64,000 nucleotides of DNA from Hungatella sp. GTDB lineage: Bacteria > Bacillota > Clostridia > Lachnospirales > Lachnospiraceae. This document shows, one piece after another, positions 1,487-57,207 of the stretch. The position numbers were made by a program, and so were the translations under genes. The notes beneath the pieces were generated by a model. It had not been told where the DNA came from and made no database searches. It was given only the letters and a program-made list of their open reading frames with translations. The first letter of the stretch is position 1; each line of letters opens with the position of its first letter. The DNA lies in assembly GCA_009712635.1 (NCBI GenBank), contig WASS01000029.1, positions 1-64,000 on the forward strand, written 5' to 3'.

Positions 1487-4063
1487 GTGATTACGTCAGA
1501 AGAAATCAAACGCAGATTATGGGATGGAGCAACTGAACTACGTGGTTCGATGGACGCAAGTCGTTATAAAGATTATATGCTTGGTCTAATGTTTTATAAA
1601 TTTTTAAGTGATAAGACTTTAGAAACATTCAAATCAACAGCGGGTTTAGGGCAGATTCCTGAGACTGAACTGGTTGATGAGTATACAAAGGCAAGAGCCG
1701 ATTATGGTGTTGAATTGGACAAAATGATTCAAGATGTGTTGGGGTACTACGTGATACCTGAACATCTTTATCAAACATGGCTGAAAGATATAAATACAGG
1801 TGATTTTGAAGTCCAAAAAGTAACAGATGCACTAAATAATTTTGAAAGAACGATTGCAGTAACCGGTGATTCAGATGATTTCAAAGGACTTTTTTCAAGT
1901 TCAACCCTTGATTTAACAGATACTGCACTTGGCAGTAATTTAAATGAGCGTAGTAAAAACATCAAGGCACTAATTCTATTATTTGCTGATTTAAACATGG
2001 TAGCACTCCAAAAGGGTGATGTTTTAGGTGATGCTTATGAGTATCTTATCGGTCAGTTTGCGATGGAGTCAGGTAAAAAGGCTGGGGAATTTTATACGCC
2101 ACGTCAAGTAAGTGAAGTTATGGCACAAATAGCAGCCAAAACTTCTAATATTAAATCAATCTATGACCCTACGGTTGGAAGTGGCTCTTTGCTTCTTACT
2201 GTTAAAAAGCATTTGGGTAAAGACGTGCAAAAGGATTTACAGTACTATGGACAGGAGAAAAACACGGCTACATACAATCTGACTCGTATGAATTTGCTTC
2301 TTCATGGTATTCGCCCGGAAAAGATGACGATAAAAAATGGTGACACCTTGTCTCAAGACTGGCCGGAAGATCCGGAACAACCAAATGAAGGGATATTATT
2401 TGATGCGGTGGTTATGAATCCCCCATATTCAGCAAAGAATTGGAATAAAGCTGGACTTAAAGTAAGTGACCCAAGGTTTGAAGTGGCCGGAGTATTACCG
2501 CCTGACTCCAAGGGCGATTTTGCTTTTCTTTTGCATGGCTTATTCCATTTAGGGCAAAACGGAACAATGGCTATCGTACTTCCTCACGGTGTTCTTTTTC
2601 GTGGCGGTGCGGAGGGTGAAATTCGCCAAAGATTATTAGATAAAAATCAGATTGATACGATTATTGGTTTGCCAAGTAATTTGTTCACAAATACAGGTAT
2701 TCCAGTTGTTGTTATGATTTTAAAGAAAAATCGTGAATTAACGGCACCAGTTCTCTTGATCGATGCATCAAACAGCTTTATTAAGATAGGCAAACAAAAT
2801 GTACTGCAAGAAAAAGATATTGCTAAAATCGTGGACACCTATGTAAGCAGAGGTGAAATTCCAGAATACAGTCATTTAGCAACTCGAGAAGAGATTATTG
2901 ATAATGGCTACAATATGAATATTCCACGTTATATTGAGGCGGTTAATAATGATATCGTGCAAGATGTGGATGCACATTTGCTTGGTGGTATTCCAAAGAA
3001 AAATATTGATGATTTGCAAGTATTACAAGCGAGTGTATCCGATTTATTATCAGCTTCCATGAAAGAACTACGCCCAAATTATGTAGAATTGACAAAGCCA
3101 GTAGCAGAACTTATGAATGAAATATTATCGGACAAGCGTATTCTTAATAAATCAGAACAGCTTAAAACAAAAGTAACCGAATATATCGTCAGATACTGGG
3201 ATATTTTGCGGCATATTGATAAAGATACAAACTTAGCAATACTTATGGAGAATATGCTTCTTGAAATAAAAAATATGTTAGCCGCGTTTGATTATATTGA
3301 TATTTATGACGGTTATCAGATAATTGCTGAAATTTGGAAACAATCACTTACTCATGACACTGAATTAATTGCTGCAAGTGATTTTTATACAGTTGGTCGC
3401 ACTCGTGAACCTAATATGGTAACAAAGGGTAGTGGAAATAACAAACGCGAAGAACAAGACGGCTGGGTCGGTGCTATTGTACCCAATGATTTAATCGCTA
3501 AACGTTTATACAGTGTGGAGCTTGTAGAGATTGAAAATAAAAAATTACGCATTGCTGAGATGGAAGCGGAACTTACAGAACTTATTGAAGCTGCTAAAGT
3601 GGAAGATAGTGATGAATATACTGCTTTGTATGATGTACTTAAAAAGAATGATGATGGAGTAGCACAGGATAGCTTTGAAAATAAAGCTATCAAAGCTGAA
3701 TTAAAGAATAGGGCGAAAGGTACATATGAATATGATTTATTGAAAAAAGCAGAAAAATTAATCACAGACAAATTATCACTAAACAAAGCAGTTAAGGCAG
3801 AAGAAAAGGAACTAAAAGAGAAAATCGAAGAGCGTATTTTGGTTCTTGCTGATGAAGAGATTGATAGCTACGTTTACGAGAAATGGTTTGGAACTACAGT
3901 AGAATTGATGATTGATTTAGTGACGCAGCCATTAAAAGAAGAACTGAACACTTTGGAAATGTTGCATAACCGTTATTCTCAAACGTTATCAGCAATTGAG
4001 CTTGAAATTGAGACATTAGAAAAAGCATTTGAAAGTCTACTGAGTGAATTGGTGGTGGAATGA
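1487..4063 (+). CDS. hsdM: Type I restriction-modification DNA methyltransferase subunit HsdM
   Basis: An 858-residue adenine methyltransferase of a type I system. The GTG start at 1487 is chosen because GGAGG lies at 1474-1478. The N-terminal helical HsdM domain is followed by the SAM motif DPTVGSGS near residue 227 and the catalytic NPPY near residue 310. After about residue 500 there is a long, charged, helix-rich extension, making the protein much longer than the usual 500-550 residues; extended versions are known. It overlaps hsdS by 4 bases (ATGA). With HsdS it methylates the recognition site and protects the host. Confidence 0.93.
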   Translation: MITSEEIKRRLWDGATELRGSMDASRYKDYMLGLMFYKFLSDKTLETFKSTAGLGQIPETELVDEYTKARADYGVELDKMIQDVLGYYVIPEHLYQTWLKDINTGDFEVQKVTDALNNFERTIAVTGDSDDFKGLFSSSTLDLTDTALGSNLNERSKNIKALILLFADLNMVALQKGDVLGDAYEYLIGQFAMESGKKAGEFYTPRQVSEVMAQIAAKTSNIKSIYDPTVGSGSLLLTVKKHLGKDVQKDLQYYGQEKNTATYNLTRMNLLLHGIRPEKMTIKNGDTLSQDWPEDPEQPNEGILFDAVVMNPPYSAKNWNKAGLKVSDPRFEVAGVLPPDSKGDFAFLLHGLFHLGQNGTMAIVLPHGVLFRGGAEGEIRQRLLDKNQIDTIIGLPSNLFTNTGIPVVVMILKKNRELTAPVLLIDASNSFIKIGKQNVLQEKDIAKIVDTYVSRGEIPEYSHLATREEIIDNGYNMNIPRYIEAVNNDIVQDVDAHLLGGIPKKNIDDLQVLQASVSDLLSASMKELRPNYVELTKPVAELMNEILSDKRILNKSEQLKTKVTEYIVRYWDILRHIDKDTNLAILMENMLLEIKNMLAAFDYIDIYDGYQIIAEIWKQSLTHDTELIAASDFYTVGRTREPNMVTKGSGNNKREEQDGWVGAIVPNDLIAKRLYSVELVEIENKKLRIAEMEAELTELIEAAKVEDSDEYTALYDVLKKNDDGVAQDSFENKAIKAELKNRAKGTYEYDLLKKAEKLITDKLSLNKAVKAEEKELKEKIEERILVLADEEIDSYVYEKWFGTTVELMIDLVTQPLKEELNTLEMLHNRYSQTLSAIELEIETLEKAFESLLSELVVE

Positions 4064-5283
4064 TGACAGAAAATAAAAAATTAGTGCCTAAAAGGCGGTT
4101 TAAAGAGTTTAAAAACTCTAATGCTTGGGAACAGCGTAAGGTTAAAGATTTGTTTTCTATAACACGAGGTTATGTGTTAGCAGCAAATAAAACAAGTGAA
4201 ACTAAATCAGAGGAAATGGTATACCCAGTATATTCTTCACAAACAAAAGATAAAGGTTTGATGGGATACTATAACGAGTATCTTTATGAGGATGCTATTA
4301 CATGGACAACCGATGGAGCAAATGCTGGCACTGTTAACTACAGACCCGGCAAGTTCTACTGTACTAACGTTTGTGGCGTTTTGCTTTCCAAAGAGATAGA
4401 TGCAGATAAGATGATGTCCGCGGCACTAAATAATGTCGCTAAAAACCATGTATCATATGTCGGGAATCCGAAATTAATGAATAATGTAATGGCTGATATT
4501 GACATATTTATTCCAAAGGATAAACAGGAAAGAAAGTTAATATCTGAGTATTTCACGAAAATCGACAACCTTATCACCCTTCATCAACGTAAGTTGGAGA
4601 AGATGAAAGCGTTAAAAGCTGCTTACCTTTCGGAGATGTTTCCCGCTGAGGGTGAACGTATGCCAAAACGTAGATTTAAGGCGTTCACTAATGCTTGGGA
4701 ACAGCGTAAGTTGGTGGAACTTTCAAATTTCATTACAAAGGGAGCAACACCAACAACTTATGGTTTTAAGTGGGAAGAAGATGGAATTCCGTTTTTTAGA
4801 AATGATTCTATTAAAGATAATAGATTTATATTTGGAGAATTTTCGTATATATCTGAAGATGCGAATACTGCATTAATTCGTTCAGAAGTACGAAGTGGAG
4901 ATATACTTGTAGCTATTACTGGTGATATTGGAAAGGTAGGAATAGTTCCTGAAAACATTGAAAAAGCTAACATTAATCAGCATATGGCAAAAGTAAGAAT
5001 AAAAAAAGACGCTTATCCATATTTCGTATATCAGTTTTTATCGACCGATAAAATGCAAGAAAAATATAAAAGAATAAAAACCGGTATATCAATGCCTCAA
5101 TTAAGTTTAGAGCAAATAAGAGATATTGATATTACTTTACCTTCTATGGAAGAACAAAAGAAAATAGGTGATTATTTTGAAAATTTTGAAAATCTTATCA
5201 CTCTTCACCAGCGCAACCTCGAAAAGCTACATAAAATTAAAAATGCGTACCTAAATGAAATGTTTGTTGGAGGTGAGCGATAG
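4060..5283 (+). CDS. hsdS: Type I restriction-modification specificity subunit HsdS
   Basis: A 407-residue specificity subunit with two target-recognition domains (about residues 20-190 and 215-395), each introduced by the same AWEQRK motif and each closed by a helical segment beginning LITLHQR. This is the classic two-half HsdS layout, in which each half reads one half of a split DNA target. It overlaps the hsdM stop by 4 bases and precedes hsdR by 2 bases, so the three genes form one operon. The repeated DNA at the head of each half could let the halves recombine. Confidence 0.93.
   Translation: MMTENKKLVPKRRFKEFKNSNAWEQRKVKDLFSITRGYVLAANKTSETKSEEMVYPVYSSQTKDKGLMGYYNEYLYEDAITWTTDGANAGTVNYRPGKFYCTNVCGVLLSKEIDADKMMSAALNNVAKNHVSYVGNPKLMNNVMADIDIFIPKDKQERKLISEYFTKIDNLITLHQRKLEKMKALKAAYLSEMFPAEGERMPKRRFKAFTNAWEQRKLVELSNFITKGATPTTYGFKWEEDGIPFFRNDSIKDNRFIFGEFSYISEDANTALIRSEVRSGDILVAITGDIGKVGIVPENIEKANINQHMAKVRIKKDAYPYFVYQFLSTDKMQEKYKRIKTGISMPQLSLEQIRDIDITLPSMEEQKKIGDYFENFENLITLHQRNLEKLHKIKNAYLNEMFVGGER
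4118..4710 (+). repeat. 23-bp exact direct repeat at the head of each HsdS half
   Basis: Bases 4118-4140 and 4688-4710 are identical over 23 positions and encode NAWEQRK at the start of each recognition domain. A second, diverged pair (about 4570 and 5196) encodes LITLHQR at the end of each domain. These are ready-made sites for domain deletion or exchange. Confidence 0.85.
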
Positions 5284-5285
5284 TT

Positions 5286-8200
5286 ATGAGTAATAACCCC
5301 AAAGATGCCAGCGAAAAAACATTCCAGGAGAATTTTGTATGTGAACTTCAAAAATACAAATGGGAGGCACCTGATTTTTTAGATGGGAACAAGCAAAAAG
5401 TGACGGTTGATACACTGGTTAATTACTGGCGTTCGGAGCTAAACCGTATCAATGCCGATCAACTGGAAGGCGTACCTTTGACTGACAGTGAATTTAAGCA
5501 GGTTCTTGCAAAAGTCAGTCAGATTTCCAATAGCTATGAAGCTGCAAAAATTTTAGCAATTGAAGAATCAAAGGGGAAAATTGACGGCATTTACCGCGAT
5601 GACAATCCAAAGCTGACAAGAAAGCAAATCACGTTGACTATCTTTCAAAAGGCACAAGTGCGTGGTGGGGATTCAAGTTATCGAATCGCCAGAGAAGTAG
5701 TAACGCCAAACAATAACCGTTTTGATATTATACTGCTCATAAATGGACTGCCGCTAATTAACATCGAGCAAAAACGAACCGATAAAACGCTTGATGAGGC
5801 TTTTGGTCAGTTTATTCGCTATTATCGTGATGGTGAATACAGTAACAACTTTATAGCATTTTCACAAATGATGGTAATTGCGACGGAAATAGAAACTCGT
5901 TATTTTGCTACACCAAAGACCTTGAATGACTTTAATCCAAGCTTTGTTTTTCACTGGTCAGATAAAAATAATAAGCCCATTAACAATTGGCAGAATGTCA
6001 TTAAACACTTTTTGATGATACCGATGGCACATCAAATGGTCGGGGATTATCTATTGATTGATGAGGCAAAAGAGGAAGAAAACAAACGCCATATGTTAAT
6101 GCGTCCATATCAAGTATATGCCCTGCAATCAGTAGAGTTGGCAGCATTTGGCGGGGATAATGATAAAAAGGAACCACACGGAGGTTTTGTTTGGCATACC
6201 ACAGGTTCAGGAAAAACAATTACCAGTTTTAAGACTGCTTTATTTTTATCCACTCGGGCAGGATTTGACAAGATTATCTTTTTGGTTGACAGACGTGAGC
6301 TTGATAGCCGCACCAGTGAAAATTTTAAAGCCTATGCAAAATATGAAGCTGTCTCTGTTGACGATACAAAGTACACCTATCAGTTAAAAAAACAATTGAA
6401 ATCACCGAAAAACGGTATCGTTGTTACAACTACCTTTAAACTGAACAATTTAGTAGAGGATTTGGAAAAAAATAATGACACTTGTTTAGCTGGTAAAAAA
6501 ATGGTTTTTATTATCGATGAGGCTCACCGTACGACTATGGGCCAGATGATGGGCAGAATTAAAAACTATTTTAAAAAGAATGGTTTATTTTATGGCTTTA
6601 CAGGTACCCCGTTGTTTGATGAAAATAAAGTCAAGGGAAAAGTGAATGAAAAAAGTGAAGTCATTAATACAACTGAAAAACTATTCGGTCCCCTCTTACA
6701 TCAATATACAATAGATGAAGCAATTGCAGACGGAAACGTTTTGGGTTTTCATGTGGACTTTATCAACACTGGTGAGTTTAAAAGCTACGATGATTTGAGA
6801 GACCAGTTAGTCGATAAAATAGTAGAAGAAAAACCAGATCAGACCAGGAGAGACGTGGAACGATTGGTTCAAGGCTGGTCTGAGACAGAAGTTGAAAAGC
6901 ATGCGAACCTTCGTAAATTACTTATCTATCAAGATGAAACCCATATTCCAAGAGTTGTAGAGGAAATTTTAACTAATTGGGAATCACAGTCACAGGGGCG
7001 TGAATTTAATGCAATTTTAACTGTTGCTTATAAAAATCGTGTAATTGCTTATTATGATGAGTTTAAAAAGCAAATGACTAAAAATGAGCAAAAATTAAAT
7101 ATTGCAATGACTTTTAGCTTTGGAAATGAAAATGATCCTGATAATATTCCGAATGAGATAATAAGAGGAATGTTTGATGACTATGCATCCTTTACTGGTA
7201 TCAAATTCGTCGTCGGCGATAAAAAGCACGGGGAAGATGCTTATTTTGAGGATGTAGTAGAACGTGCGACTCGTGGTGGAAGTAGTCGCAACCAAAAAAA
7301 TATTGATTTAGTGATTGTAGCTGACCAACTTTTGACTGGTTACGATTCAAAACGTTTAAATACATTATACGTTGACCGTACTCTTGAATTACAGGGATTG
7401 ATACAGGCTTATTCACGAACTAACCGCATTTTTGGAAGTACGAAAGAATTTGGGACAATTATTAATTTCCAGTATCCAAAAATCACAGAGGAAATGGTTA
7501 ATAAAGCGTTAAAACTCTATGGTAGTGGAGGAAAAAGTAGCCGGGCAATTGTTGATACTTATCCTACCGCAGTAGAAAAGCTTAATATTAAAATTTCTGA
7601 GATGATTGTAACACTTCTTGACCCAACTAAGTGGGCAGAAATAAAAGACGATGAAGAGAAGAAAGAAGCCTTTATCTTAGCTTTTAAAGATGCAGCAGAA
7701 CAGTTAAATCTTGTAGAACAATATTATGAATTTAAGTGGGATGTGAATTCTTTTGGAATTGCTGAGCATACCTGGCTGAAGTACGTAGGAGCATATAAGA
7801 ATTTGATTCATAAGCCGGGTACTCCACCGACACCTACCAATATGAGACCCCTTGTTGGCAAAACCAAACTAGCAGGAACCCAAGTAATTGATGCAGCACA
7901 TATTTTGAGTTTGATTGGTTCTAAAGTAGATAGTGTAGATGGGATTCAAACAGTAAATGATGAAACACTGCGGATTATTCATGAGCAAATACAAGAACTT
8001 AGTAATATGGGGGAAGATGAACAGGCGGCGCTCTTAAAAGAGTTTGTAGATACCGAACTGGTTCCTGGAAATATATCAAGTAGTTTGAATTTTGATGAAT
8101 CTTTTGAGGAATGGAAGAAGAGTAAACTAGATCATAGTGTTTATGATTTTGCAGAAGAATGGGGATTAGATGCCCAGTTACTTAGGGAATCTGTCGCTTC

Positions 8201-8369
8201 ATATTCTTGTTCTCAGCCAACAGTTGTTCCGTATATTGATGAATTAACGAAAGGCGTTGTTTTTGAAAATGCAGCAAATCAATCAGCTGGAAATAGATTA
8301 AGACATATAATGGCTTTAACTAAGAAATTGACTGTATGGATGGCGGAAACTAAGCAGAAGTATGATTAA
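5286..8369 (+). CDS. hsdR: Type I restriction endonuclease subunit HsdR
   Basis: A 1027-residue ATP-dependent translocase-nuclease. The N-terminal PD-(D/E)XK nuclease is visible as FDIIL followed by IEQKR near residue 160. The SF2 helicase motor shows HTTGSGKT near 303, DEAH near 410 and GFTGTPL near 437, then the second RecA domain with QAYSRTNR near 710. Full length for the family. Its ribosome site (GGAGGTGAG) lies in the last codons of hsdS. It cuts unmethylated DNA after translocation, so the operon is probably functional. Confidence 0.94.
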   Translation: MSNNPKDASEKTFQENFVCELQKYKWEAPDFLDGNKQKVTVDTLVNYWRSELNRINADQLEGVPLTDSEFKQVLAKVSQISNSYEAAKILAIEESKGKIDGIYRDDNPKLTRKQITLTIFQKAQVRGGDSSYRIAREVVTPNNNRFDIILLINGLPLINIEQKRTDKTLDEAFGQFIRYYRDGEYSNNFIAFSQMMVIATEIETRYFATPKTLNDFNPSFVFHWSDKNNKPINNWQNVIKHFLMIPMAHQMVGDYLLIDEAKEEENKRHMLMRPYQVYALQSVELAAFGGDNDKKEPHGGFVWHTTGSGKTITSFKTALFLSTRAGFDKIIFLVDRRELDSRTSENFKAYAKYEAVSVDDTKYTYQLKKQLKSPKNGIVVTTTFKLNNLVEDLEKNNDTCLAGKKMVFIIDEAHRTTMGQMMGRIKNYFKKNGLFYGFTGTPLFDENKVKGKVNEKSEVINTTEKLFGPLLHQYTIDEAIADGNVLGFHVDFINTGEFKSYDDLRDQLVDKIVEEKPDQTRRDVERLVQGWSETEVEKHANLRKLLIYQDETHIPRVVEEILTNWESQSQGREFNAILTVAYKNRVIAYYDEFKKQMTKNEQKLNIAMTFSFGNENDPDNIPNEIIRGMFDDYASFTGIKFVVGDKKHGEDAYFEDVVERATRGGSSRNQKNIDLVIVADQLLTGYDSKRLNTLYVDRTLELQGLIQAYSRTNRIFGSTKEFGTIINFQYPKITEEMVNKALKLYGSGGKSSRAIVDTYPTAVEKLNIKISEMIVTLLDPTKWAEIKDDEEKKEAFILAFKDAAEQLNLVEQYYEFKWDVNSFGIAEHTWLKYVGAYKNLIHKPGTPPTPTNMRPLVGKTKLAGTQVIDAAHILSLIGSKVDSVDGIQTVNDETLRIIHEQIQELSNMGEDEQAALLKEFVDTELVPGNISSSLNFDESFEEWKKSKLDHSVYDFAEEWGLDAQLLRESVASYSCSQPTVVPYIDELTKGVVFENAANQSAGNRLRHIMALTKKLTVWMAETKQKYD

Positions 8370-15448: not shown

Positions 15449-16018
15449 ATAAATGAACAGCATCATCAGTTCGGACGTTACATTGAGGAAGCCAAGAATA
15501 CCAAAGGCCACAGTGGATATGACGATGACAAGGATATCAAAAATAGTGACAAGGGCTATGTCATCATTGGCAGGGAGGATAACATTGTTGGAGAAGAGGA
15601 TGGCGGCAAATTGAAACCGAATAAACCAATCACCAAGGGCGAAGCAGAGAAAATGATTGATAAGACAAAGCCGCTGCCTATTCCAACCTCTGAAATACCC
15701 AAACCAACCCCAGAGCCCACTACGCATGTTCCAGTGGAGCCAGTGCCAATGCCGGTGGAGCCAACGCCTACGCCAGAGAAGCCCACACCTACACCAAAAC
15801 CCGGATGGGATTCGGATGACCACGGTGATTCCGGCGGTGGTTCCTATTCCTATCCAGATACGCAGGTGCGCTTTGAGTTTCCCGTCACCGCTCATACCGA
15901 TAATGAAATCAAAATTATGCCGGTATGGAAATACATGAAGAGCTTTTCCTGGTCATTGACGAAAACTGCAGCGGATGGCTCCGAACAGCCAATGGAGCTT
16001 ATAGGTATCGCACTCTAG
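15449..16018 (+). pseudogene. Proline-rich C-terminal fragment
   Basis: This frame is open from the preceding TGA to 16018, with no ATG start; only a TTG at 15611 could initiate. It encodes an acidic stretch (DDDKDIKNSDKGY), a Pro-Thr-rich linker built on PEP/PTP units at about 15,680-15,800, and a C-terminal beta-like segment. This looks like the end of a surface or conjugation protein joined to the DUF4314 gene by deletion. The many overlapping open frames are due to the repeat-like composition. Confidence 0.45.
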
Positions 16019-16618
16019 GTCTGGAGGGAGGAACGCTCTAAGATCCTTATGCGTCCGAAAGATGTACTGATAAATCAGCTCAGCTTTTAACATTATCATA
16101 TGGGGTTCCGGCATGACTCATACTTTGCGTAATTCCCCACATCTCACAGAAACTTGTAAAATCAATGGATGTGAATTGTTATATTAATAATATCATCCAA
16201 TTCGTCCAAGATATTTAAATTATCGTCTTTTAAATGATTCCCCAATTTAGGGTATTTAACCGTATGGACAGCAAGTAATTGATCTGCTCTTTATTTTTCC
16301 ATACTTACGACCGGCTTATAACGTCATCTTATAATAGTACCACTATTTACAATATCAGCAAGTTAATGTATTTTTTTATAACTTTGCATAGCTACTTGAA
16401 CAGTATTGATATTTATACCATTTCCTTTCTAAAATAGTAAATGATGCGGTTAAAGTCTCATTTAACGCCAGAAAATACATAGAATTTCTTATCTTTCTCA
16501 CTTATTATAATAATTTTATTTTCAGCATATATCTACCAGATATAAAACTTATAATTTAATCTAACAATTTGTATTTAAAAATACAATATATAATATATTT
16601 AAATTACACTAAAATCAC
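16019..16618. other. AT-rich non-coding stretch before the peptide cluster
   Basis: About 600 bases without a convincing gene on either strand; composition drops sharply in GC toward the right. It marks the boundary between element debris and the peptide cluster. Confidence 0.6.
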
Positions 16619-16647
16619 TTGACATTATAGAAATGCTATAATAATAT
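16619..16647 (+). promoter_or_regulatory. Sigma-A-type promoter of the CxC peptide cluster
   Basis: TTGACA at 16619-16624, a 17-base spacer, then TAATAT at 16642-16647. The expected start site near 16654 falls inside the inverted repeat at 16650-16700. Confidence 0.6.
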
Positions 16648-16649
16648 TT

Positions 16650-16700
16650 AGTTAGTAATAAAATACATACAATGTAATTATGTGTACTTTATTACTAACT
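16650..16700. promoter_or_regulatory. 13-bp inverted repeat overlapping the transcription start
   Basis: AGTTAGTAATAAA at 16650-16662 is repeated as its exact reverse complement at 16688-16700; TACATA and TGTGTA inside pair partly. Its position at the predicted start site suggests an operator, or a leader hairpin. No dedicated regulator gene lies immediately beside it. Confidence 0.6.
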
Positions 16701-16826
16701 TGAAGTGTCAATAGTGTAATGATTGATCTTGGGAATGTTTAATATATCAATATAAAATAATATTTTCAAGGTACTGTAACCTGTTTTACTTGGCTATAAA
16801 TCTTATTATACAAGGAGTAAATAATT

Positions 16827-18152
16827 ATGGTAAAAACAAAAAATCTTTCTCTAAACATTGACTACATAATAACTTACGAACTTTGTGATGCTGTCATCAT
16901 ATTTAATGCAGCAAATGCAAGATGGTGCAAAATAGATTTTTCGGAATATGAACAATTTCAGAAATTATTAACAGGGTGTAGAGTTCAGGATGCCGAATTA
17001 GATGAAAACCTAGTGTTGAAATTGCTCGTTAAAGGGATTATTGATTTTACTACTAAGCCAGAAATACGATTTAGTAATGAAGCTCCTTTGGATATGCCAC
17101 ATCAAGTTTATTATGAACCAACTTCATATTGCAACTTGAATTGTGTTTATTGCTATGCAAATGCCATTCTTCCTGAGAATCTGGAATTTGATACTGAGAA
17201 ATCCAAAGAAATACTAGATAAAATAATAGAATTACCAACATTGCGTGGAGTTACCTTTACTGGTGGAGAACCATTATTACGAAAAGACACTTTAGATTTA
17301 GCCCAATATGTATTTGATAATTCTGAAGCAAAACTATCTATACTTACAAACGGTTTGCTCATAAATAAAGATAATGTTAGTCGCTTTAAAATCTTTAATA
17401 ACGTGACTTTGAGTTTAGATGCTCATAATGAACAACTTAATAGCTTAACACGTGGAAAGGGTACTTTCACAAAAGTAGTTGATGCTATAAAGTTATTAAA
17501 AAAAGAAGGAATCAAGGTAAATGTTACAACTGTTGTATCAAAAACGAACATTGATTATGTTATTCAAATAATGGATTACATGAAGGAACTTGGTGTAGAT
17601 GAACATAATATGAGTACACATATTTCGATGGGACGAGGAAGTGATAACTGTATTGAATGTTCAACAAAGGACGTAATACTATACCGTAAAAAATATTTCG
17701 ATCATTTATGTGATAAAAAAGAGCCGAAAGATATTGATCAACTTATACGCCCTAGACTTGTGCAAGGGCAAATAAGAAAATCATGCGGGGCCTCAGCAGG
17801 TGAATCGTTTATTACAGATGATGGAAATGTTTATCCATGTAGGTTATTTGCAAATGATCAATATTTAATTGGAAATGTTTTAGATTCCTCACTATTTAAC
17901 ATTTTACATGGTGAGAATGCTACGCGTTTTATCAAAAATCTCAACTCGCAAAGTTATACATCTTGTCCAAAATGCAAGTATCTGTATGTATGTGCTGGAA
18001 GTTGCCGAAGTGCACATGCTGCTTATACTGGAGACTTGAAAAAATCTGATGATGGATTATGCACTATATTAAAAAATGAAATCGACTGCGGAATTATTAC
18101 TGAATCAGGGTATAACCCGATTACGAAAAGACCGATAGGAGAAATGGTATGA
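16827..18152 (+). CDS. Radical SAM/SPASM peptide-maturation enzyme
   Basis: A 441-residue enzyme expected to modify the downstream Cys-X-Cys peptides. The first 85 residues look like a leader-binding region. The radical SAM cluster motif CNLNCVYC is near residues 102-109, followed by TFTGGEPLL. The C-terminal SPASM region has cysteines in CGASAG, YPCRLF, CPKCKYLYVC, GSC and DGLC, enough for two auxiliary iron-sulfur clusters. Such enzymes form thioether or carbon-carbon crosslinks in peptides; which one here is inference. ATG with AAGGAG upstream; overlaps the next gene by 4 bases. Confidence 0.9.
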   Translation: MVKTKNLSLNIDYIITYELCDAVIIFNAANARWCKIDFSEYEQFQKLLTGCRVQDAELDENLVLKLLVKGIIDFTTKPEIRFSNEAPLDMPHQVYYEPTSYCNLNCVYCYANAILPENLEFDTEKSKEILDKIIELPTLRGVTFTGGEPLLRKDTLDLAQYVFDNSEAKLSILTNGLLINKDNVSRFKIFNNVTLSLDAHNEQLNSLTRGKGTFTKVVDAIKLLKKEGIKVNVTTVVSKTNIDYVIQIMDYMKELGVDEHNMSTHISMGRGSDNCIECSTKDVILYRKKYFDHLCDKKEPKDIDQLIRPRLVQGQIRKSCGASAGESFITDDGNVYPCRLFANDQYLIGNVLDSSLFNILHGENATRFIKNLNSQSYTSCPKCKYLYVCAGSCRSAHAAYTGDLKKSDDGLCTILKNEIDCGIITESGYNPITKRPIGEMV

Positions 18153-18421
18153 ATAAATATATTCTTTGTGAAGATGTAATGAAATATTTAGATGAGGATA
18201 CTAAAGTAGAGTATATAGTTAATGTGCAGAAAGGAACAATTTTTCAGTTGAATGACACAGCAAAACTCATACTGCAGAACATAGAAGATGAGCCGACATT
18301 TGAAAGTATATTTTCTAAGCTTTCTACAACTTTTCCTGATGCAGAAGAACAAACCATAAAAAGTGATCTTCAGGAATTTATAGACCATCTTGTTAAACAA
18401 AATTTTATTTCTGTAAAATAA
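18149..18421 (+). CDS. PqqD-like peptide chaperone (RiPP recognition element)
   Basis: A 90-residue protein with the PqqD-like winged-helix pattern: a beta hairpin ending in GTIFQLNDTAKLILQ, then helices through the C-terminus. PqqD-like proteins bind precursor leaders and hand them to the radical SAM partner. The 4-base overlap with that enzyme supports a shared role. Confidence 0.8.
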   Translation: MNKYILCEDVMKYLDEDTKVEYIVNVQKGTIFQLNDTAKLILQNIEDEPTFESIFSKLSTTFPDAEEQTIKSDLQEFIDHLVKQNFISVK

Positions 18422-18475
18422 GCTATATGCCAAATTGGGCTTTTAAAAATTAAAATTATGGAAAGGAGTGATATC

Positions 18476-18565
18476 ATGTATGTAAAACCTAAACTTATCG
18501 CTACTGAAAATTCCGCAATGCTAGGCAAAGACTGCTTTTGTGTAATAATCGGTATAGGATTCTAA
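18476..18565 (+). CDS. Precursor peptide 1, CxC core
   Basis: A 29-residue peptide from ATG 18476, with AAAGGAGTG upstream. It starts MYVKPKLIATENSAML and ends in the core CFCVIIGIGF. It shares with the next two genes a PK motif near the N-terminus, an A-M pair before the core, a Cys-X-Cys pair and a following I-I-(x)G. Each has its own strong ribosome site, so all are made in quantity. Substrate of the radical SAM enzyme by context. Confidence 0.85.
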   Translation: MYVKPKLIATENSAMLGKDCFCVIIGIGF

Positions 18566-18609
18566 TTTCTCGATTACATTAAATATATTAAAACAGAGGA
18601 GGTGTAAAT

Positions 18610-18693
18610 ATGAAATATACTGCACCAAAGGCCAGTCTTGTTCAGAGCGAAGCTATGTTAAATTGTTGGTGTTTCATCATTGGATGGAACTAA
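18610..18693 (+). CDS. Precursor peptide 2, CxC core
   Basis: A 27-residue peptide from ATG 18610, preceded by AGAGGAGGTG. It begins MKYTAPKASLVQSEAML and ends in CWCFIIGWN. The most diverged of the three in the leader, but the same C-x-C-x-I-I-G arrangement; here aromatic residues occupy the position between and after the cysteines. Confidence 0.85.
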   Translation: MKYTAPKASLVQSEAMLNCWCFIIGWN

Positions 18694-18734
18694 GAAATAC
18701 ATTTTCTACGCTTACTTAGAAAGGAGGTATTTAT

Positions 18735-18821
18735 ATGTATACTGCACCTAAACTTATTGCTGTGAAAAATAATGCGGAAATGTTCTGTATCTGTATTATT
18801 TACGGAGCTGGCAAAAATTAA
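18735..18821 (+). CDS. Precursor peptide 3, CxC core
   Basis: A 28-residue peptide from ATG 18735, preceded by AAAGGAGGT. It begins MYTAPKLIAVKNNAEM and ends in CICIIYGAGKN, so a Tyr replaces the third hydrophobic residue and the tail is longer and basic. Three variants of one core suggest duplication followed by diversification. Confidence 0.85.
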   Translation: MYTAPKLIAVKNNAEMFCICIIYGAGKN

Positions 18822-18857
18822 TAGTTCTATGGTTTCCAATTAACGGCATATTAGCTT

Positions 18858-18899
18858 ACGGAGTTATCACCTGATATGCTCAAGTGGTAACTCCGTTTT
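18858..18899 (+). terminator. Intra-operon hairpin after the precursor genes
   Basis: ACGGAGTTATCAC at 18858-18870 pairs with GTGGTAACTCCGT at 18884-18896 (one G-T pair), followed by TTT. Placed between three precursor genes and the peptidase/exporter, it would keep precursor transcripts more abundant than the downstream genes. Confidence 0.75.
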
Positions 18900-18912
18900 A
18901 AGGAAGATAAGA

Positions 18913-19596
18913 ATGATAATAACAAAAATAATTCAAAAAGCTCTTGAAACTAAGGGTAGTTATAACATCAAGACACAAGGTTTTTCAATGCAACCTACAA
19001 TTAATGAAGGAGAATCCATTGAACTCATAAAGCCTTACCATCTAAAGCCAGGAGATATTATCTTGTTTGAAGTACAAAATACTCTTGTCCTTCATAGAAT
19101 TATAGAGATTTACGATCAGTATATTGTTACAAAAGGAGATAATCACGATTATTCTGATCACTATATTAGCAAAAAAAATATTATAGCTAAAACAGCTAAA
19201 TTCTTTGATGATCCTAAGCCAAGCAATACTTATAATTATAAGTTCAAAGGTATCACTTTCGTTTATTGGAACATAGAAAACATTTCAGATAAACTGGTTT
19301 TTCATCTAAAATTATATGGTATTAACCTTGTTAGAGAACAATTTCCAATAGACAAAATTCATCTTGCAGTCATTCCTGGGGCCGAAAAAAATTGTGATGT
19401 ACTTAAGGATTACATAGATAAATATGGAAGTGATAATATTGCATTACATTTTAATGCTAAAATTAGCAATACTCAAAGAGACGGTTTTTTGCTATTAGAG
19501 TCTTTTAAAGACTATTTTCGAATTGGCACTAGAATCTCTAATTTCATTTTGGATTGTGAAGATAGTATGTTTGTTGTGATGGGTAAGCTAATATAG
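18913..19596 (+). CDS. S24/S26-type peptidase, probable leader protease
   Basis: A 227-residue protein. Residues 1-95 carry the signal-peptidase-like core: GFSMQP with the presumed nucleophile Ser26, LHR near residue 60 and KGDNHDYSD near 75, a pattern closer to the Ser-His SipW branch than to the Ser-Lys type. There is no clear transmembrane segment. The C-terminal 130 residues are an unrecognised domain. Between precursors and exporter it is the best candidate for removing the leader; that is inference. Confidence 0.7.
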   Translation: MIITKIIQKALETKGSYNIKTQGFSMQPTINEGESIELIKPYHLKPGDIILFEVQNTLVLHRIIEIYDQYIVTKGDNHDYSDHYISKKNIIAKTAKFFDDPKPSNTYNYKFKGITFVYWNIENISDKLVFHLKLYGINLVREQFPIDKIHLAVIPGAEKNCDVLKDYIDKYGSDNIALHFNAKISNTQRDGFLLLESFKDYFRIGTRISNFILDCEDSMFVVMGKLI

Positions 19597-19612
19597 ATTG
19601 GAGGAGCTCTCT

Positions 19613-21313
19613 ATGAATACTATATCGAATTGTATAAATAAAAGGAAGTGGTATTACTTCCTTTTATTTATAGTGTTGATTATTAAAGCCAGCCTTGGTG
19701 CAGCATTAGCAATTATCCTACAAAAATTAATAGACTCTTTTAGCAATACTACAAAAGAAAAAATCATATTTAATACTACTTTTGTAGTGGGATATATTAT
19801 TGTTTTCGCATTAGTAAATATATTAAGCAGTTATTTGATTTCGCGGATAACAAAAGGAGTATTAATTGATATTAAGAGTCAAACAGTTAATAATATTCTC
19901 GGGTTATCTATTCCCGAATTCTCCTGTAAAAATACTGCTTCCTATATTTCGTTATTGACGAATCGCTTAGAAGATATTGAAACTGTGTATCTGAGTAGTA
20001 TTGTTGAGTTATTTGACATGGGAATAACACTATTAATATCTTTATTCGTTTTACTATACCTAAGTAGTGTTATTGGGGTGGTTGCTCTCATTTCAACTCT
20101 GTTAGCACTTCTTGTTCCTGCAATATTGTCTAGTGTTGGAAATTCTCTAAGATTAAAGTATTCAAAAGATCAAGAAGAGATGACAAAGTTTACAAAAGAT
20201 ATTTTAAATGGATTTGAACTTGTAAAAGGTTATGGCGTAGAAAAAAGCATATTAGATCAATATAATATAAAAAATAAAAAGATGGAAAATTCCAGATTTA
20301 ATTTAAACTTTATAAAAGGTCTAATAAGCGGAATAAGTATGCTATTTGGCTATATTGTTTTTTTTGCTGTGACGATTACTGGGCTTTTTTTATCATTAAA
20401 TACCTTACTTACTGTAGGTACATTAATCGCTTGCATAAATCTTAGTAATGGTTTAGTTAATCCTATTATGAACGGTATACAGCAAATTTTTTTGTTTAAA
20501 TCAATGTCTGGGATTAGAGAAAAATTTGATATAAAATCAAATAGGTCTAAGCAAGAGACAATTAGAATAAAAGAGCTTCAAGATCGAATTCTTCTAAAAA
20601 ATGTAAACTATTCTTATCCCGGGAAGAATGGGGTCCAAAATATTAATCTTGAATTTTTAAAGGGAAAAAAATATGCAATAGTGGGCAGCAGTGGCTCTGG
20701 AAAAAGTACAATACTCAAAATACTTGCTGGTCATCTATATGATTATGGCGGAGATATTTACATTGACGGTAATCAGCTCAAGCAAATAGACCGCAGAGAC
20801 CTTTCCAGGATATGTTCAACTGTTACCCAAACGCCGTTTTTATTTGATGCAACAATAGAGGACAATATAAGATTTTTTCAAGATATTAGTGATACAGATG
20901 TAAAAGGTTCTATTAATGCTGCTGGATTATCAGAATTTATTAATGGAAGAAAAGATTTTATAAAATTTCAAGTAGGAGAAGATGGTAATAATATATCAGG
21001 GGGCGAAAAACAGAGAATCGCAATTGCGAGGGCTTTTGCTCGAAATAGTGATATTATATTACTTGACGAAGCTACGAGTAACTTAGATAATAGTTTATCT
21101 AGAGCAATTGAAGAAATATTAATTAATTCAGAATCTACAATAATATCTGTTACTCATAAATTAAACGAGGAAATGTTAAAAAAATATAATATGATTATTG
21201 CAATGAATAATGGTTCAGTTATTGAAGTAGGCACTTTTGATACATTGTTATCAAAAAAAGGACTGTTCTATAGTCTTTATTACTTAGATAATATTAATGA
21301 TAAAAGTATTTAG
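19613..21313 (+). CDS. ABC exporter, fused membrane and ATPase domains
   Basis: A 566-residue half-transporter. The ATG at 19613 is preferred because GGAGGAG lies just upstream, inside the longer frame. The first 320 residues hold about six membrane segments. The ATPase has GSSGSGKST near residue 360, ISGGEKQR near 461 and ILLDEAT near 482. No C39 peptidase domain is present, consistent with a separate protease gene. Probable exporter of the CxC peptides. Confidence 0.88.
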   Translation: MNTISNCINKRKWYYFLLFIVLIIKASLGAALAIILQKLIDSFSNTTKEKIIFNTTFVVGYIIVFALVNILSSYLISRITKGVLIDIKSQTVNNILGLSIPEFSCKNTASYISLLTNRLEDIETVYLSSIVELFDMGITLLISLFVLLYLSSVIGVVALISTLLALLVPAILSSVGNSLRLKYSKDQEEMTKFTKDILNGFELVKGYGVEKSILDQYNIKNKKMENSRFNLNFIKGLISGISMLFGYIVFFAVTITGLFLSLNTLLTVGTLIACINLSNGLVNPIMNGIQQIFLFKSMSGIREKFDIKSNRSKQETIRIKELQDRILLKNVNYSYPGKNGVQNINLEFLKGKKYAIVGSSGSGKSTILKILAGHLYDYGGDIYIDGNQLKQIDRRDLSRICSTVTQTPFLFDATIEDNIRFFQDISDTDVKGSINAAGLSEFINGRKDFIKFQVGEDGNNISGGEKQRIAIARAFARNSDIILLDEATSNLDNSLSRAIEEILINSESTIISVTHKLNEEMLKKYNMIIAMNNGSVIEVGTFDTLLSKKGLFYSLYYLDNINDKSI

Positions 21314-21399
21314 CAAATAATTTTTTCTGTTACTAGCAATGTTTTATGTAAAAAATACTTGACTATATTATAATGAGAGAGGAAAGTATCAAGTTTGGA

Positions 21400-21502
21400 A
21401 GCCTAGAAAAACAGAGCATATTCTAGGCTAAACTGCTAAATATATACATGGGACAATTGTGAATCAAAGTGACGCGAAAGAGCTCTCTCGCTCACGAGAG
21501 CT
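21400..21502 (+). promoter_or_regulatory. Two stem-loops in the leader of the second ABC pair
   Basis: AGCCTAGAA (21400-21408) pairs with TTCTAGGCT (21421-21429), and AGCTCTC (21481-21487) with GAGAGCT (21496-21502). The 245-base gap before the ATPase gene suggests a structured, possibly regulatory leader. Confidence 0.5.
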
Positions 21503-21558
21503 AGGAAGTTGAAATATCGAATCCACCTTTTTAAATATTAATAGGAGGTGATTTAATA

Positions 21559-22329
21559 ATGAAAGAAATACTTAAAGTTAAGACATTAAAAAAGTATTAT
21601 GGAAATAAGAAAGGTAATATTGTAAAAGCAATTGATGATATTAGCTTTTCCATTAATAAAGGTGAATTTGTAGGAATTATGGGTTCATCTGGTTCTGGAA
21701 AAACAACTCTGTTGAATATAATTGCAACAATTGATAATCCTGACTCTGGTAATGTTTTTTTTAATAATGTAGATATATTACAATTGTCAGAAAAGGAACT
21801 TGCATTTTTTCGTGGAGAAAAAATTGGTTATGTTTTTCAAGATTATAACTTAATAAATACATTAACTGTTTTTGAAAATATTTCATTATCTCTAATTATG
21901 TTAAATAGATCTGTTTTGGACATAAAGGAACTTATTGAAGAAACAGCTCAAAAATTTGGTATATTTGATTTATTGGACAAATATCCATATGAAATCTCTG
22001 GAGGGCAAAGGCAACGATGTGCATGTGCAAGAGCTATTATTAAGGAACCCACTATTGTGTTAGCTGATGAACCAACAGGAGCACTTGACACAATATCATC
22101 CAAGGAACTAATGGATACATTAGGTGGAATGAATACAAAACTGAATAGTACAATTTTGTTAGTAACTCATGATGCTATTACTGCCAGCTATTGCCAAAAA
22201 GTATTGTTTTTAAAAGACGGTAAAATATTTAATACTATTTTAAAGGGTGATAAAAGTAAAAAGGACTTTTATATCGAAATTTTAGATGTCTTATCAATAT
22301 TGGGGGATGAATTTAATGATATGCGTTAA
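21559..22329 (+). CDS. ABC transporter ATPase, BceA/MacB type
   Basis: A 256-residue ATPase with GSSGSGKT near residue 41, ISGGQRQR near 147 and LADEPTGALD near 165, typical of the lipoprotein/antimicrobial-peptide family. GGAGGTG precedes ATG 21559. It overlaps the permease gene. In this context the pair probably removes or sheds the cluster's own peptide or other cell-wall-active peptides. Confidence 0.9.
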   Translation: MKEILKVKTLKKYYGNKKGNIVKAIDDISFSINKGEFVGIMGSSGSGKTTLLNIIATIDNPDSGNVFFNNVDILQLSEKELAFFRGEKIGYVFQDYNLINTLTVFENISLSLIMLNRSVLDIKELIEETAQKFGIFDLLDKYPYEISGGQRQRCACARAIIKEPTIVLADEPTGALDTISSKELMDTLGGMNTKLNSTILLVTHDAITASYCQKVLFLKDGKIFNTILKGDKSKKDFYIEILDVLSILGDEFNDMR

Positions 22330-23623
22330 GATTTCTCATAGTAACATTAAAAACAAAATAAAAGATTATTTAATATACCTTTTTACACTCACTGCACTTG
22401 CAGTATTAATGCTTTCTGCTTTTATGATAACCCTTCTCCCCTCTATCAATAAAAATGCAGATGGTGAATTTGCCTCAAATTCACTACCGGCTATTGTTAG
22501 TTTAGTCCTTTTTTCATTAATGATATACATGAATAGGTTTATGCTAAAAAAACAAAGCCAAGAGTTGGCTATATATATGTTATCTGGTATACAGAAAAAA
22601 CACATATGTTTTATATATATTTATGAGCATTTGTTGTTTGGTGCAATTGCTCTTGTCTTTGGCACGCTAATCGGTAGTATTGCTATTATATTCTTGGAAA
22701 ATGTATATGAAGCTAATGTGAGCGTACAAGAGTTTTTTTTAGCTATAGTACAATCAGTATTATTTTTCAGCTTTGCTTTTATTTTATCAGTTTTGTTTAC
22801 GGTATTAGCTATCCCCAAAATGACAATTAGAGGGTTAATGCATTTACAGAATTATAATGAAAAATTAAACATTTCTAGAACTCTCATTTGGAAGTACTTT
22901 ATCATCACTATTGTTTCTTTGAGAATTATTGTTCTTCAAGTTTCATTTTTCAACCCTTTTGCTGCATCTACAATAGTTTTATCTATAGGACTATTTCTTT
23001 TCTTCGGATATAGTGCTCTTATATGTTACATACAATACTGCAGAGAGCATCGTAAGAAGTTTTTTACTAAAAATAAAATTGTATATTTAGTCGGTAATTT
23101 TATGTCCAGGATAAAAACTATGATTTATATGTCCACTGTTATTTCATCATGTGTAGTAATGATTATGGTTTCTTTTATTGCTGGTTGGATATTTACTCAT
23201 AGTCAAGGAATATTATTTGGTGATGATGGAAATGACTTTATTATGGGATTTATGCAATTTTACATTGCAATACTATTCACTTTAATACTATTTTCTATCA
23301 TTGCTTTGCAACAAATTATCGATACGAAAGAGCATCACAACAAATTAAATGTTCTTAGACAACTTGGTGCAAATAATAGCGATATTAATAAATTATTATT
23401 ACAACAAGTTATTGTTAATTTTACGATTCCTGTATTATTAGCGTTTGTATTACTAGTTGTTTTAATTTATCCAATCCATATGCAGCTTAAAGAAGTAATT
23501 ACAAATACAACTCTGCTTGCAGGGGCTTCGATTTTTACTTGCATATTTATTTTATTATACGGTATTTATATAGTTGTTACATACATTAGTCTTAAAAATT
23601 TAGATAATAAGATATGGAACTGA
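22316..23623 (+). CDS. FtsX-like ABC permease, BceB type, short
   Basis: About 435 residues from ATG 22316, chosen because GGGGGATGA lies at suitable distance. Several membrane segments are clear: one near the N-terminus, a repeated FtsX-like block with LAIYMLSGIQKKHI, and a C-terminal block with NKLNVLRQLGANNSDINKLL. BceB proteins usually exceed 600 residues with a large external loop; that loop seems absent or reduced. Partner of the preceding ATPase; probable self-protection. Confidence 0.8.
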   Translation: MICVKISHSNIKNKIKDYLIYLFTLTALAVLMLSAFMITLLPSINKNADGEFASNSLPAIVSLVLFSLMIYMNRFMLKKQSQELAIYMLSGIQKKHICFIYIYEHLLFGAIALVFGTLIGSIAIIFLENVYEANVSVQEFFLAIVQSVLFFSFAFILSVLFTVLAIPKMTIRGLMHLQNYNEKLNISRTLIWKYFIITIVSLRIIVLQVSFFNPFAASTIVLSIGLFLFFGYSALICYIQYCREHRKKFFTKNKIVYLVGNFMSRIKTMIYMSTVISSCVVMIMVSFIAGWIFTHSQGILFGDDGNDFIMGFMQFYIAILFTLILFSIIALQQIIDTKEHHNKLNVLRQLGANNSDINKLLLQQVIVNFTIPVLLAFVLLVVLIYPIHMQLKEVITNTTLLAGASIFTCIFILLYGIYIVVTYISLKNLDNKIWN

Positions 23624-23762
23624 ATTTAGCTCTTCCACGGATGAAATAGGATAGTTGGATGCAAAATCTTTCCATATAGCTTTTTGTTCGCTTTGATAGC
23701 CAACGCACAGAGATTTTGTTCAATTCTAATTTCTCGGTGCATATCCATTTTTGAAAGTCGCC

Positions 23763-23806
23763 TTGACAAAAAAATAAGAATGAGATAATATAGTTGATAT
23801 TATCAA
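23763..23806 (+). promoter_or_regulatory. Promoter with MarR-type palindromic operator
   Basis: TTGACA (23763-23768), 17 bases, TAATAT (23786-23791), directly followed by TTGATA-T-TATCAA (23794-23806), a perfect 6-bp inverted repeat over the expected start site. The downstream gene encodes a MarR domain, so autorepression is likely. Confidence 0.75.
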
Positions 23807-23824
23807 TTATTTTGGAGGCGAGGT

Positions 23825-24727
23825 ATGAATAAAGAGGAAATGATAAGAAAAGAGATACGATTAATTGTGAGGGAATTAGGTTTATTAAATCACAATTGCT
23901 TTAATTCAGGCTTGACACTTGCACAAGCACATATATTAAATTATCTAAAGCAAAACGGAAAGACTCCTTTTAATGAATTGTTGATAAACCTGGGTATTGA
24001 TAAGGCTTCATTTAGTAGAATAATTAGTAATCTGGAAGAAAAAAAATATTTAGAATTAAAAAAATCCGAAGATGATAAGAGAATGAAAGATATTTATCTT
24101 TTACCATTAGGTTTGACAACTATTAATGATGGAGATTATAAAGCAAATACATTTATGAATGAAATTTTAGATTTAGGAGATAGCGAGGACATAGACAATA
24201 TTGTTAGGGCATTTAGAGTATTTCGTATTCTTGCATTAAAAAACAATCTTAGAAAGAATGATTCTAGAATTTTAATTGAAAAAATATCAGAAAACCATAT
24301 GGATAATTCAATAAAATTAGCAACTGAAGTATTTACTAATGAGCAGGGTATCCCGGCAGAATCAATTGCAATTGACGCTAATTTAAAACCAATCTGGTGG
24401 TGTGCAAGAGTAGGAGAAGATGTTATTGGGGTTGTTGCAACATGGAAAGAAAAAGATAAATGGAAATGGGGAAGATTTGCTATTGATAAAAGACTGAGAG
24501 GTTTAGGTATTGGTCAAAAAATGGCTATTTATTCATTAAAAGAGATATTTAGACAATATACAGATGAGTTATATATTGAAGCAAGAGAAGTAACTAAAAA
24601 TATGTTAATAAAATTTGGATGCAAAGTTATTGGAGAAACAGAAGATTTTTATGGCGAAGCCATAACACCAATATTATTAAACAAAGAATTGTTTGATGAA
24701 CATTTGAAGAATTATATTAACTCATAA
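23825..24727 (+). CDS. MarR regulator fused to GNAT acetyltransferase
   Basis: A 300-residue fusion. Residues 1-145 are a MarR winged helix (LTLAQAHILNYLKQNG, then a recognition helix DKASFSRIISNLEEKKYL). Residues 155-290 are a GNAT fold with the acetyl-CoA loop region RGLGIGQKMA. GGAGGCGAGG precedes the start. MarR-GNAT fusions are known, but the substrate is not evident. It could regulate the adjacent ABC genes or acetylate a small molecule. Confidence 0.85.
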   Translation: MNKEEMIRKEIRLIVRELGLLNHNCFNSGLTLAQAHILNYLKQNGKTPFNELLINLGIDKASFSRIISNLEEKKYLELKKSEDDKRMKDIYLLPLGLTTINDGDYKANTFMNEILDLGDSEDIDNIVRAFRVFRILALKNNLRKNDSRILIEKISENHMDNSIKLATEVFTNEQGIPAESIAIDANLKPIWWCARVGEDVIGVVATWKEKDKWKWGRFAIDKRLRGLGIGQKMAIYSLKEIFRQYTDELYIEAREVTKNMLIKFGCKVIGETEDFYGEAITPILLNKELFDEHLKNYINS

Positions 24728-25132
24728 AATTATTGGAAATAAGAATAAAAATAAGAAAAGTAAATAAGCGGATTTTGAATAATAGCAAATTTTACAATAG
24801 TTCTTAGTAAGGTAGATAGGAGATAGTTTATATAAAACAGGGGCAGTACTATATCGTTTTTTCATTAAGTATTAGTTAATATATTGCCTACGCCAAGGCA
24901 CAAATGTGTCATTCAGGAATCATGATCACCGCATCGACACATTTTGAGACGGTAGTCTTGATGTCGTAGGTGAACGATTGAATGCACGCAACGCTATGAT
25001 ATTATCTCTTTATCTAATTTGTAAAGTTCCACGTTTAAGGGCAGAAACCAAAAAATCAGGTTCTGCCCTTTAATAGTTACCAACATATCTACATCGGTTT
25101 AATAAGTTTTACGGAACTTAAAATGCTCTCTA
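24728..25132. other. Intergenic stretch with a strong bidirectional terminator
   Basis: No gene is visible. AAGGGCAGAA at 25037-25046 pairs with TTCTGCCCTT at 25061-25070 around a 14-base A-rich loop, serving the converging genes on both sides. Confidence 0.7.
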
Positions 25133-51154: not shown

Positions 51155-51287
51155 TTATATTAAAAATAGACAAATGTTTTTAATTTTCATATTTTATAGG
51201 TTTGCTGGGTTGTTTAATTAATTTATGTTCTGGCAGCAGTAATAATATAATTCAAAAGATTATAAAAAGGTATGTGAGGTGTGCAAA

Positions 51288-52115: not shown

Positions 52116-52327
52116 GATTTAGATTTACTGGTATATTTGATCTGTTTAATCAGAAAAACGAGTATTATCTAATAAATAAAAAACTGGATACTATTATACA
52201 GATAAACGAGTCCATGTATAAAGTACTGAGTAATGCCAAACAGGGGACAGAACTTAACTGCAATGAAATAAATTTGAATACTATGAATATTTTAATTTAC
52301 AACCGAGTATTGGAGGCGATTAATTGA
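52112..52327 (+). CDS. Small protein, possibly PqqD-like
   Basis: A 71-residue protein overlapping both neighbours by 4 bases. The segment NEYYLINKKLDTIIQINESMYKVLS looks like the hairpin-plus-helix of PqqD-like leader-binding domains (split at about residue 14-38), but the fold is incomplete. Its place in a tightly coupled operon favours a leader-binding role. Confidence 0.5.
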   Translation: MRFRFTGIFDLFNQKNEYYLINKKLDTIIQINESMYKVLSNAKQGTELNCNEINLNTMNILIYNRVLEAIN

Positions 52328-53640: not shown

Positions 53641-53700
53641 TGTTCACTGCGAATACTTTAATGAAATATTAAAAATAAATGATATAAAGGAGGGATTTAC

Positions 53701-56907: not shown

Positions 56908-56966
56908 TATTGATATATTGTTAATTGATACAATATATAAATTATAAGAGAGAGGAGGAAGTACTT

Positions 56967-57131: not shown

Positions 57132-57150
57132 ACAGCAGAAAAAGAACAAT

Positions 57151-57179: not shown

Positions 57180-57207
57180 CAAAAAATAAGGGGTGTAGAG
57201 GTAAGAC

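Follow-up and report, generated by a model that had tools for sequence, protein, structure and literature searches.

A three-precursor radical SAM peptide cluster from Hungatella sp., probably a Bacillota variant of the StsA/CxC sactipeptide type

The three-precursor locus

A 64,000-nt stretch of a Hungatella sp. assembly (GCA_009712635.1, contig WASS01000029.1, positions 1 to 64,000; hereafter the window) contains a compact gene cluster in which a radical S-adenosylmethionine (SAM) enzyme with a SPASM domain and a PqqD-like protein are followed by three short peptide genes, an S26-like peptidase, and an ATP-binding cassette (ABC) exporter (Table 1). An initial annotation had proposed three precursor genes (29, 27, and 28 codons) with a PK-containing leader and C-x-C cores, and these genes and their coordinates were right; the proposed flanking genes were confirmed by Pfam and TIGR02228, and the overall picture of a radical SAM cluster for a ribosomally synthesized and post-translationally modified peptide (RiPP), with three precursors, a discrete PqqD-type protein, a peptidase, and an exporter, is supported. 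The PqqD-type gene overlaps the end of the radical SAM gene by 4 nt, and the exporter more likely starts at the ATG at 19613 than at the TTG at 19598 of the open reading frame (ORF) list.

Each precursor gene is preceded by a purine-rich ribosome-binding site, as judged by eye. Identity to precursor 1 is 46% for precursor 2 and 52% for precursor 3, and M, Y, P, K, A, C, C, I, and G are invariant across the three peptides; within the cores, the two Cys, an Ile, and a Gly stay constant, and Ile and aromatic residues recur there. Of 2,353 short stop-to-stop segments in the window, exactly the three precursors fit the motif [WY]..P.{12,14}C.C, whose spacing range was chosen with the answer known. 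Shuffling of residues gave 0.305 matches on average, so the three matches are beyond chance. The distinctive properties here are the length of 27–29 aa, the hydrophobic core without a Gly/Ser tail, the three tandem copies, and the host.

Table 1. Features of the three-precursor cluster, its surroundings, and the second RiPP-like cluster, in window coordinates
Feature	Position	Strand	Detail
Promoter-like site TTGACA-17-TAATAT	16619..16647	+	10/12 matches
Inverted repeat (51-nt dyad)	16650..16700		24-nt arms, 88% complementary, 3-nt gap; directly 3′ of promoter-like site
Radical SAM/SPASM peptide maturase, StsB-like, 441 aa	16827..18152	+	Pfam Radical_SAM and SPASM
Discrete PqqD-type protein (RiPP recognition element, RRE), StsC-like, 90 aa	18149..18421	+	PF05402, E 1.1e-13
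Precursor 1, 29 aa, MYVKPKLIATENSAMLGKDCFCVIIGIGF	18476..18565	+	YVKPKL leader, core CFCVIIGIGF
Precursor 2, 27 aa, MKYTAPKASLVQSEAMLNCWCFIIGWN	18610..18693	+	YTAPKA leader, core CWCFIIGWN
Precursor 3, 28 aa, MYTAPKLIAVKNNAEMFCICIIYGAGKN	18735..18821	+	YTAPKL leader, core CICIIYGAGKN
Inverted repeat (hairpin)	18858..18896		17-nt arms, 88% complementary, then TTTT
S26 (signal peptidase I)-like protein	18913..19596	+	TIGR02228, 52.3 bits (cut-off 51.85)
ABC exporter, membrane and ATPase parts fused	19613..21313	+	PF00664, PF00005
ABC ATPase	21559..22329	+	Best TIGR03608, 210.8 bits, below cut-off 254.85
FtsX-type permease adjoining that ATPase	22286..23623	+	PF02687; cluster membership unsure
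MarR/GNAT-type protein	23825..24727		Downstream of FtsX permease; cluster membership unsure
B12-type radical SAM protein	52324-53640		Second cluster
Radical SAM protein	53701-54762		Second cluster
PqqD-like protein with longer C-terminal part	54734-55546		Second cluster
HemK/PrmC-like methyltransferase	55540-56907		Second cluster
54-aa peptide ORF	56967-57131		Second cluster; after AGGAGG; YMSPE leader; tail alternating Asn and mostly Val/Ala
ABC exporter	57208-58812		Second cluster

Comparison with StsB-like loci

StsB (NF045574) was the best of 89 NCBIfam families matching the radical SAM enzyme at E ≤ 1, with 203.8 bits over nearly the full length (residues 20–431) and 125.9 bits for the next family; the PapB ranthipeptide, AlbA, and SCIFF maturase models scored 107.9, 89.8, and 80.6 bits. 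The maturases of subtilosin (AlbA) and SCIFF are likewise SPASM enzymes acting on Cys, but score lower, and the Cys spacing and core size of subtilosin, SCIFF, thuricin, and ruminococcin C are unlike those of the present precursors. As positive controls for NF045574, the StsB proteins of Streptantibioticus cattleyicolor and S. sparsogenes scored 738 and 818 bits. The CxxxCxxC motif (Cys 102, 106, and 109) and Cys 320, 338, 380, 383, 389, 393, and 412 were invariant between the enzyme and eight StsB-like rows. With a model built from 45 StsB-like rows (L118, L135, and L141, which are truncated, were left out), the enzyme scored 219.6 bits, compared with 171.7 bits for L010 and 129.0 bits or less for the remainder of 24 other radical SAM proteins. 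The L010 protein, from a different family within the same class, had StsB as top NCBIfam family too (164.1 bits, against 150 for the second; residues 86–450 of 487); thus, the StsB likeness of the enzyme is graded and not exclusive. A 28-aa ORF, MFRIIEKPRVKITTPSPYRLDLKYGADY (2842-2928, minus strand), with a KP leader and no Cys lies directly upstream of the L010 gene. In a quick tree of 43 rows, for which the Sts rows were thinned from 48 to 20 (L100 and L127, treated below, within both counts) and L003, L006, and L014 were left out, 18 Sts rows formed a supported group (SH-aLRT 99), and along the tree path the enzyme was nearest to the Sts rows, at 29% identity at most. The structure model of the enzyme was poor, with a mean predicted local distance difference test (pLDDT) score of 55.6; its residues 11–50 (pLDDT 64–72) form three strands and then a helix, RRE-like at best.

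Searches of other genomes (1,906 counted, some drawn repeatedly), at thresholds of 1e-27 to 1e-60 and with mostly the best 4–6 candidates per genome scored, returned no match to the enzyme at the strict thresholds; two of these searches, with alignment A5, took in 249 and 250 genomes. A same-genus search yielded one match (L009, 30%) and a class search five (27–33%), all starting at residue 77 or later of the enzyme. Viral contigs contained no close relative by single-protein and alignment A1 queries, and alignments A3 and A4 retrieved distant radical SAM proteins only, among the matches listed (for A4, the best 600 candidates); a phage search gave one unannotated record at 27%. A match on a Paraclostridium sordellii plasmid was rejected because its three radical SAM genes, agr locus, and S8 peptidase mark another kind of system. 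By tBLASTn, a 25% match on an S. cattleyicolor plasmid proved to be the true StsB that served as control; the 36-aa ORF upstream of it, MVSSWIKPDITSAEPQMLPPACSCGCGSGGGGGAGS, gave a weak StsA match of 24 bits, under the model's cut-off of 42, and the sequence YYxxTxxCNLxCxYCYA is common to this StsB and the enzyme.

A scan of GTDB genomes for that motif, back-translated, recovered 50 loci, with the motif within an open frame in all of them, and 46 of the 50 matched StsB at E 1e-150 or better. StsB was also the best family for L118 and L141, incomplete at the locus edge (345 and 222 bits). The other two, from a Firmicutes and a Spirochaetales metagenome-assembled genome (L100 and L127), matched no NCBIfam family at E 1e-30, had no peptide of the W..P/C.C kind, and are excluded from the counts below. 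The 48 StsB-like loci comprised 47 from actinomycetes, by title, and one from Celeribacter persicus (Pseudomonadota; L121), with a StsB gene (746 bits) that is preceded by a peptide stretch reading C-M-C-G-V-W-S-G-S-G and followed by a PqqD-like ORF; judged by this gene content, L121 is an Sts-type cluster outside the actinomycetes.

A W..P-(9-18)-C.C stretch was found 100–700 nt upstream of the radical SAM gene in 46 of the 48 loci, the other two (L104 and L139) being too near the locus edge to judge. These loci held 48 such stretches, 15 of the C-x-C-x-C type and 33 with C-x-C only; in L106 and L134, two stretches lie upstream of one StsB gene, an indication that multiple precursors occur in actinomycetes too. 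The initial annotation had taken the C-x-C cores to be unlike known classes, a view that does not stand: NCBIfam holds both NF045558 (StsA) and NF045559 (sacti_RiPP_CxC, “StsA-related sactipeptide RiPP”), all four of the related-locus peptides tested matched one of them above cut-off (three StsA, one NF045559), and about two-thirds of the stretches have the same two-Cys pattern. A described class thus shares the motif, but no model matched the three precursors themselves.

The Pro-to-Cys spacing after the W/YxxP leader is 15, 13, and 13 in precursors 1, 2, and 3, and 13 in 35 of 43 distinct peptides from the StsB-like loci. In best local alignments with StsA-type peptides, 0, 0, and 1 of 500 full shuffles reached the scores of precursors 1, 2, and 3, and the likest stretch noticed, CACGLWSGSGQN, lies inside the peptide of L134 and resembles CICIIYGAGKN of precursor 3. 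The three tested StsA matches have C-x-C-x-C cores and Gly/Ser/Ala tails, whereas the precursors have two Cys and hydrophobic tails. The two-Cys core is shared with NF045559 (which carries domain NF045560), where it reads C-x-C-x-x-W-S-G-x-G and W..P ends the leader; an A-(x)-M stretch before the core, as in the precursors, occurs in 9 of the 33 C-x-C rows. However, the NF045559 model spans 87 positions with an extra N-terminal domain, compared with 27–29 aa here. According to PMC12710340, binding of StsA by StsC is lost on changing W-15/V-14 or K-13/P-12 and, unexpectedly, K-18/P-17 as well; precursor 1 has YVKP where the S. sparsogenes StsA has WVKP.

The accessory proteins were compared in the same loci. 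A putative PqqD-sized ORF, picked out by a loose motif, lies 3′ of the radical SAM gene in 38 of the 48 loci, and a StsC-type model from these ORFs gave 32.7 bits for the PqqD-type protein of the cluster and 15.4 for the other PqqD-like protein of the window. The RRE-Finder paper notes discrete lasso-type RREs co-occurring with radical SAM enzymes (PMC7470986), so a discrete RRE beside such an enzyme is not new as an architecture. The S26-like protein is a probable leader peptidase that carries GFSMQPT and LHR motifs and, as judged by eye, lacks a membrane segment at its N-terminus; its structure model was poor (pLDDT 34.7). An S26-like ORF (GxSMxP motif) occurs downstream in 8 of the 48 loci, and an ABC ATPase-like ORF, by motif, anywhere in 12. 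With phmmer, seven of the eight S26-like ORFs (all except that of L129) matched the protein of the cluster, and a model of all eight matched its residues 5–105 at 59.4 bits. All eight loci are of the C-x-C-x-C type. There are six further C-x-C-x-C loci: in five, the sequence stops no more than 350 nt from the radical SAM gene, and the sixth, L109, with 3.4 kb visible, has no S26-like ORF. No S26-like ORF was found by motif in the C-x-C-only loci, many of which end soon after the radical SAM gene. The cluster therefore combines two-Cys cores with a type of peptidase that, in the loci compared, accompanied three-Cys cores only.

Interpretation and alternatives

In leader motif, Pro-to-Cys spacing, and gene set, the cluster agrees with Sts clusters, and on these sequence grounds it is probably a variant, in Bacillota, of the clusters for StsA/CxC sactipeptides, and so a likely extension of a known family, not the start of a new one. 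With the StsA/StsB/StsC system (NF045558, NF045574; S. sparsogenes, L116) it shares a W/YxxP leader, a C-x-C core, a radical SAM enzyme with YYxxTxxCNLxCxYCYA, and a discrete PqqD-type protein beside the radical SAM gene, together with the S26-like and ABC ORFs of some Sts loci. It differs in gene order, with three precursors after the PqqD-type gene, whereas Sts loci have a single precursor, or two in 2 of 46 loci, ahead of the radical SAM gene, in the 26–29% identity of its enzyme to StsB, and in its Bacillota host. PMC12710340 describes StsC as belonging to an actinomycete sactipeptide, and searches of open-access literature listings brought up no description of Sts-type clusters from Bacillota; a literature search for Clo7bot likewise found no paper.

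Several results weigh against this assignment. The StsB score of the enzyme is far below the curated cut-off of 625 bits, its N-terminal 90 residues score only 7.1 bits with the 45-row StsB model, and in the tree the enzyme, the Sts clade, and the rest meet on long branches at a fork left unresolved. Since the KP-leader peptide beside L010 has no Cys, likeness of the radical SAM enzyme alone leaves the substrate type unfixed. The three precursors matched no precursor family in NCBIfam, StsA and NF045559 included, and a comparison with Cys-rich peptide families gave SmrB, at 12.7 bits, as the sole match. When the Cys positions were kept in place, the alignment scores of precursors 1, 2, and 3 were reached by 2, 6, and 22 of 500 shuffles; a profile of StsA-type peptides placed precursor 3 at the top of the 2,353 segments, with an E value as high as 0.37, and had neither of the other two precursors among the 12 segments listed; profile-profile comparison with hhalign gave E 0.00044 at a probability of just 34%. 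An apparent likeness of the C-terminal parts of the S26-like proteins, seen by eye, was dropped because the model found none. No orthologue that would allow a comparison of core conservation was found in the genomes searched. On the motif, the spacing, and these comparisons together, kinship of the precursors with StsA-type peptides is likely, not proven.

It is unlikely that the cluster belongs to a separate SPASM RiPP lineage that shares YxxP/PqqD recognition with Sts clusters and acquired its C-x-C core independently. The fork in the tree and the comparable enzyme beside a Cys-free KP peptide in L010 would fit such an origin, as would W/Y/LxxP-type leaders, which are common to several RiPP classes according to PMC12710340; but leader motif, spacing, C-x-C, A-(x)-M, S26-like peptidase, and discrete PqqD-type protein all agree together. 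Quite unlikely, too, is that the same system forms ranthipeptide-type thioethers, at the beta or gamma carbon, and not sactionines: the PapB model also matches and sequence cannot separate the two linkages, but the StsB model matches far better. SPASM enzymes catalyse many reactions, a point in favor of some other radical chemistry, such as C-C or ether links to Trp, Tyr, Phe, or Ile, epimerisation, or a cyclopropane at Ile, with C-x-C serving a metal or disulfide. Although Ile and aromatic residues recur in the cores, and a poly-cyclopropylglycine peptide is reported in PMC9062424, such chemistry is very improbable given which core residues never vary (the two Cys, an Ile, and a Gly) and given that the nearest named enzymes are called sactipeptide maturases.

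If the cluster is a Bacillota variant of the StsA/CxC type, its PqqD-type protein would, from its family, bind the YxxP leader motif of all three precursors, and the StsB-like enzyme, via a 5′-deoxyadenosyl radical, would link one or both Cys of C-x-C by thioethers to residues a short way downstream, with the alpha carbon as the probable attachment site. The S26-like protein would then cut the leader close to the A-M or A-E-M stretch before the core, and the ABC exporter would release a set of three short hydrophobic peptides, whose role as antibacterials or signals is a guess. More doubtfully, the products may be very small: hydrophobic two-Cys cores of 9–11 residues, with thioethers closing very small or nested rings next to C-x-C, all three peptides being made by a single enzyme in a spore-forming-type member of the Bacillota, in a ring layout impossible for the Gly/Ser-rich actinomycete members. 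If the assignment is true, StsA/CxC sactipeptide logic reaches from actinomycetes into Bacillota, with natural substrates of <30 residues; precursors this short would be convenient for defining the true needs of the enzyme and as a basis for constructing small bridged peptides, and its three natural cores would offer a ready test of substrate tolerance.

Surroundings, host, and a second cluster

The promoter-like site upstream of the radical SAM gene is weak, because 56 such sites were observed in the region compared with 54.1 in shuffles. The 51-nt dyad that follows it is a possible operator, and the hairpin between the precursors and the peptidase gene a possible attenuator, although a terminator search did not call the latter; no Rfam match at the gathering threshold was obtained in 16000-24900. 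Downstream of the exporter, the separate ABC ATPase is a possible immunity transporter, its membership in the cluster being unsure. The G+C content is 29–31% across 16–24 kb, and most, though not all, 2-kb steps of the window are higher. The host genome encodes Spo0A (325.3 bits, cut-off 200; over cut-off in 1 of 14 control genomes), which we take to mark a spore-forming member of the Bacillota. At 1487-8369, three ORFs resemble, by eye, a type I restriction-modification set.

A second RiPP-like cluster occupies 51279-58812. Its 54-aa peptide had no Pfam or NCBIfam match, and its logic may resemble that of polytheonamide-type peptides, but with a YxxP leader; this cluster may be more novel than the three-precursor cluster.

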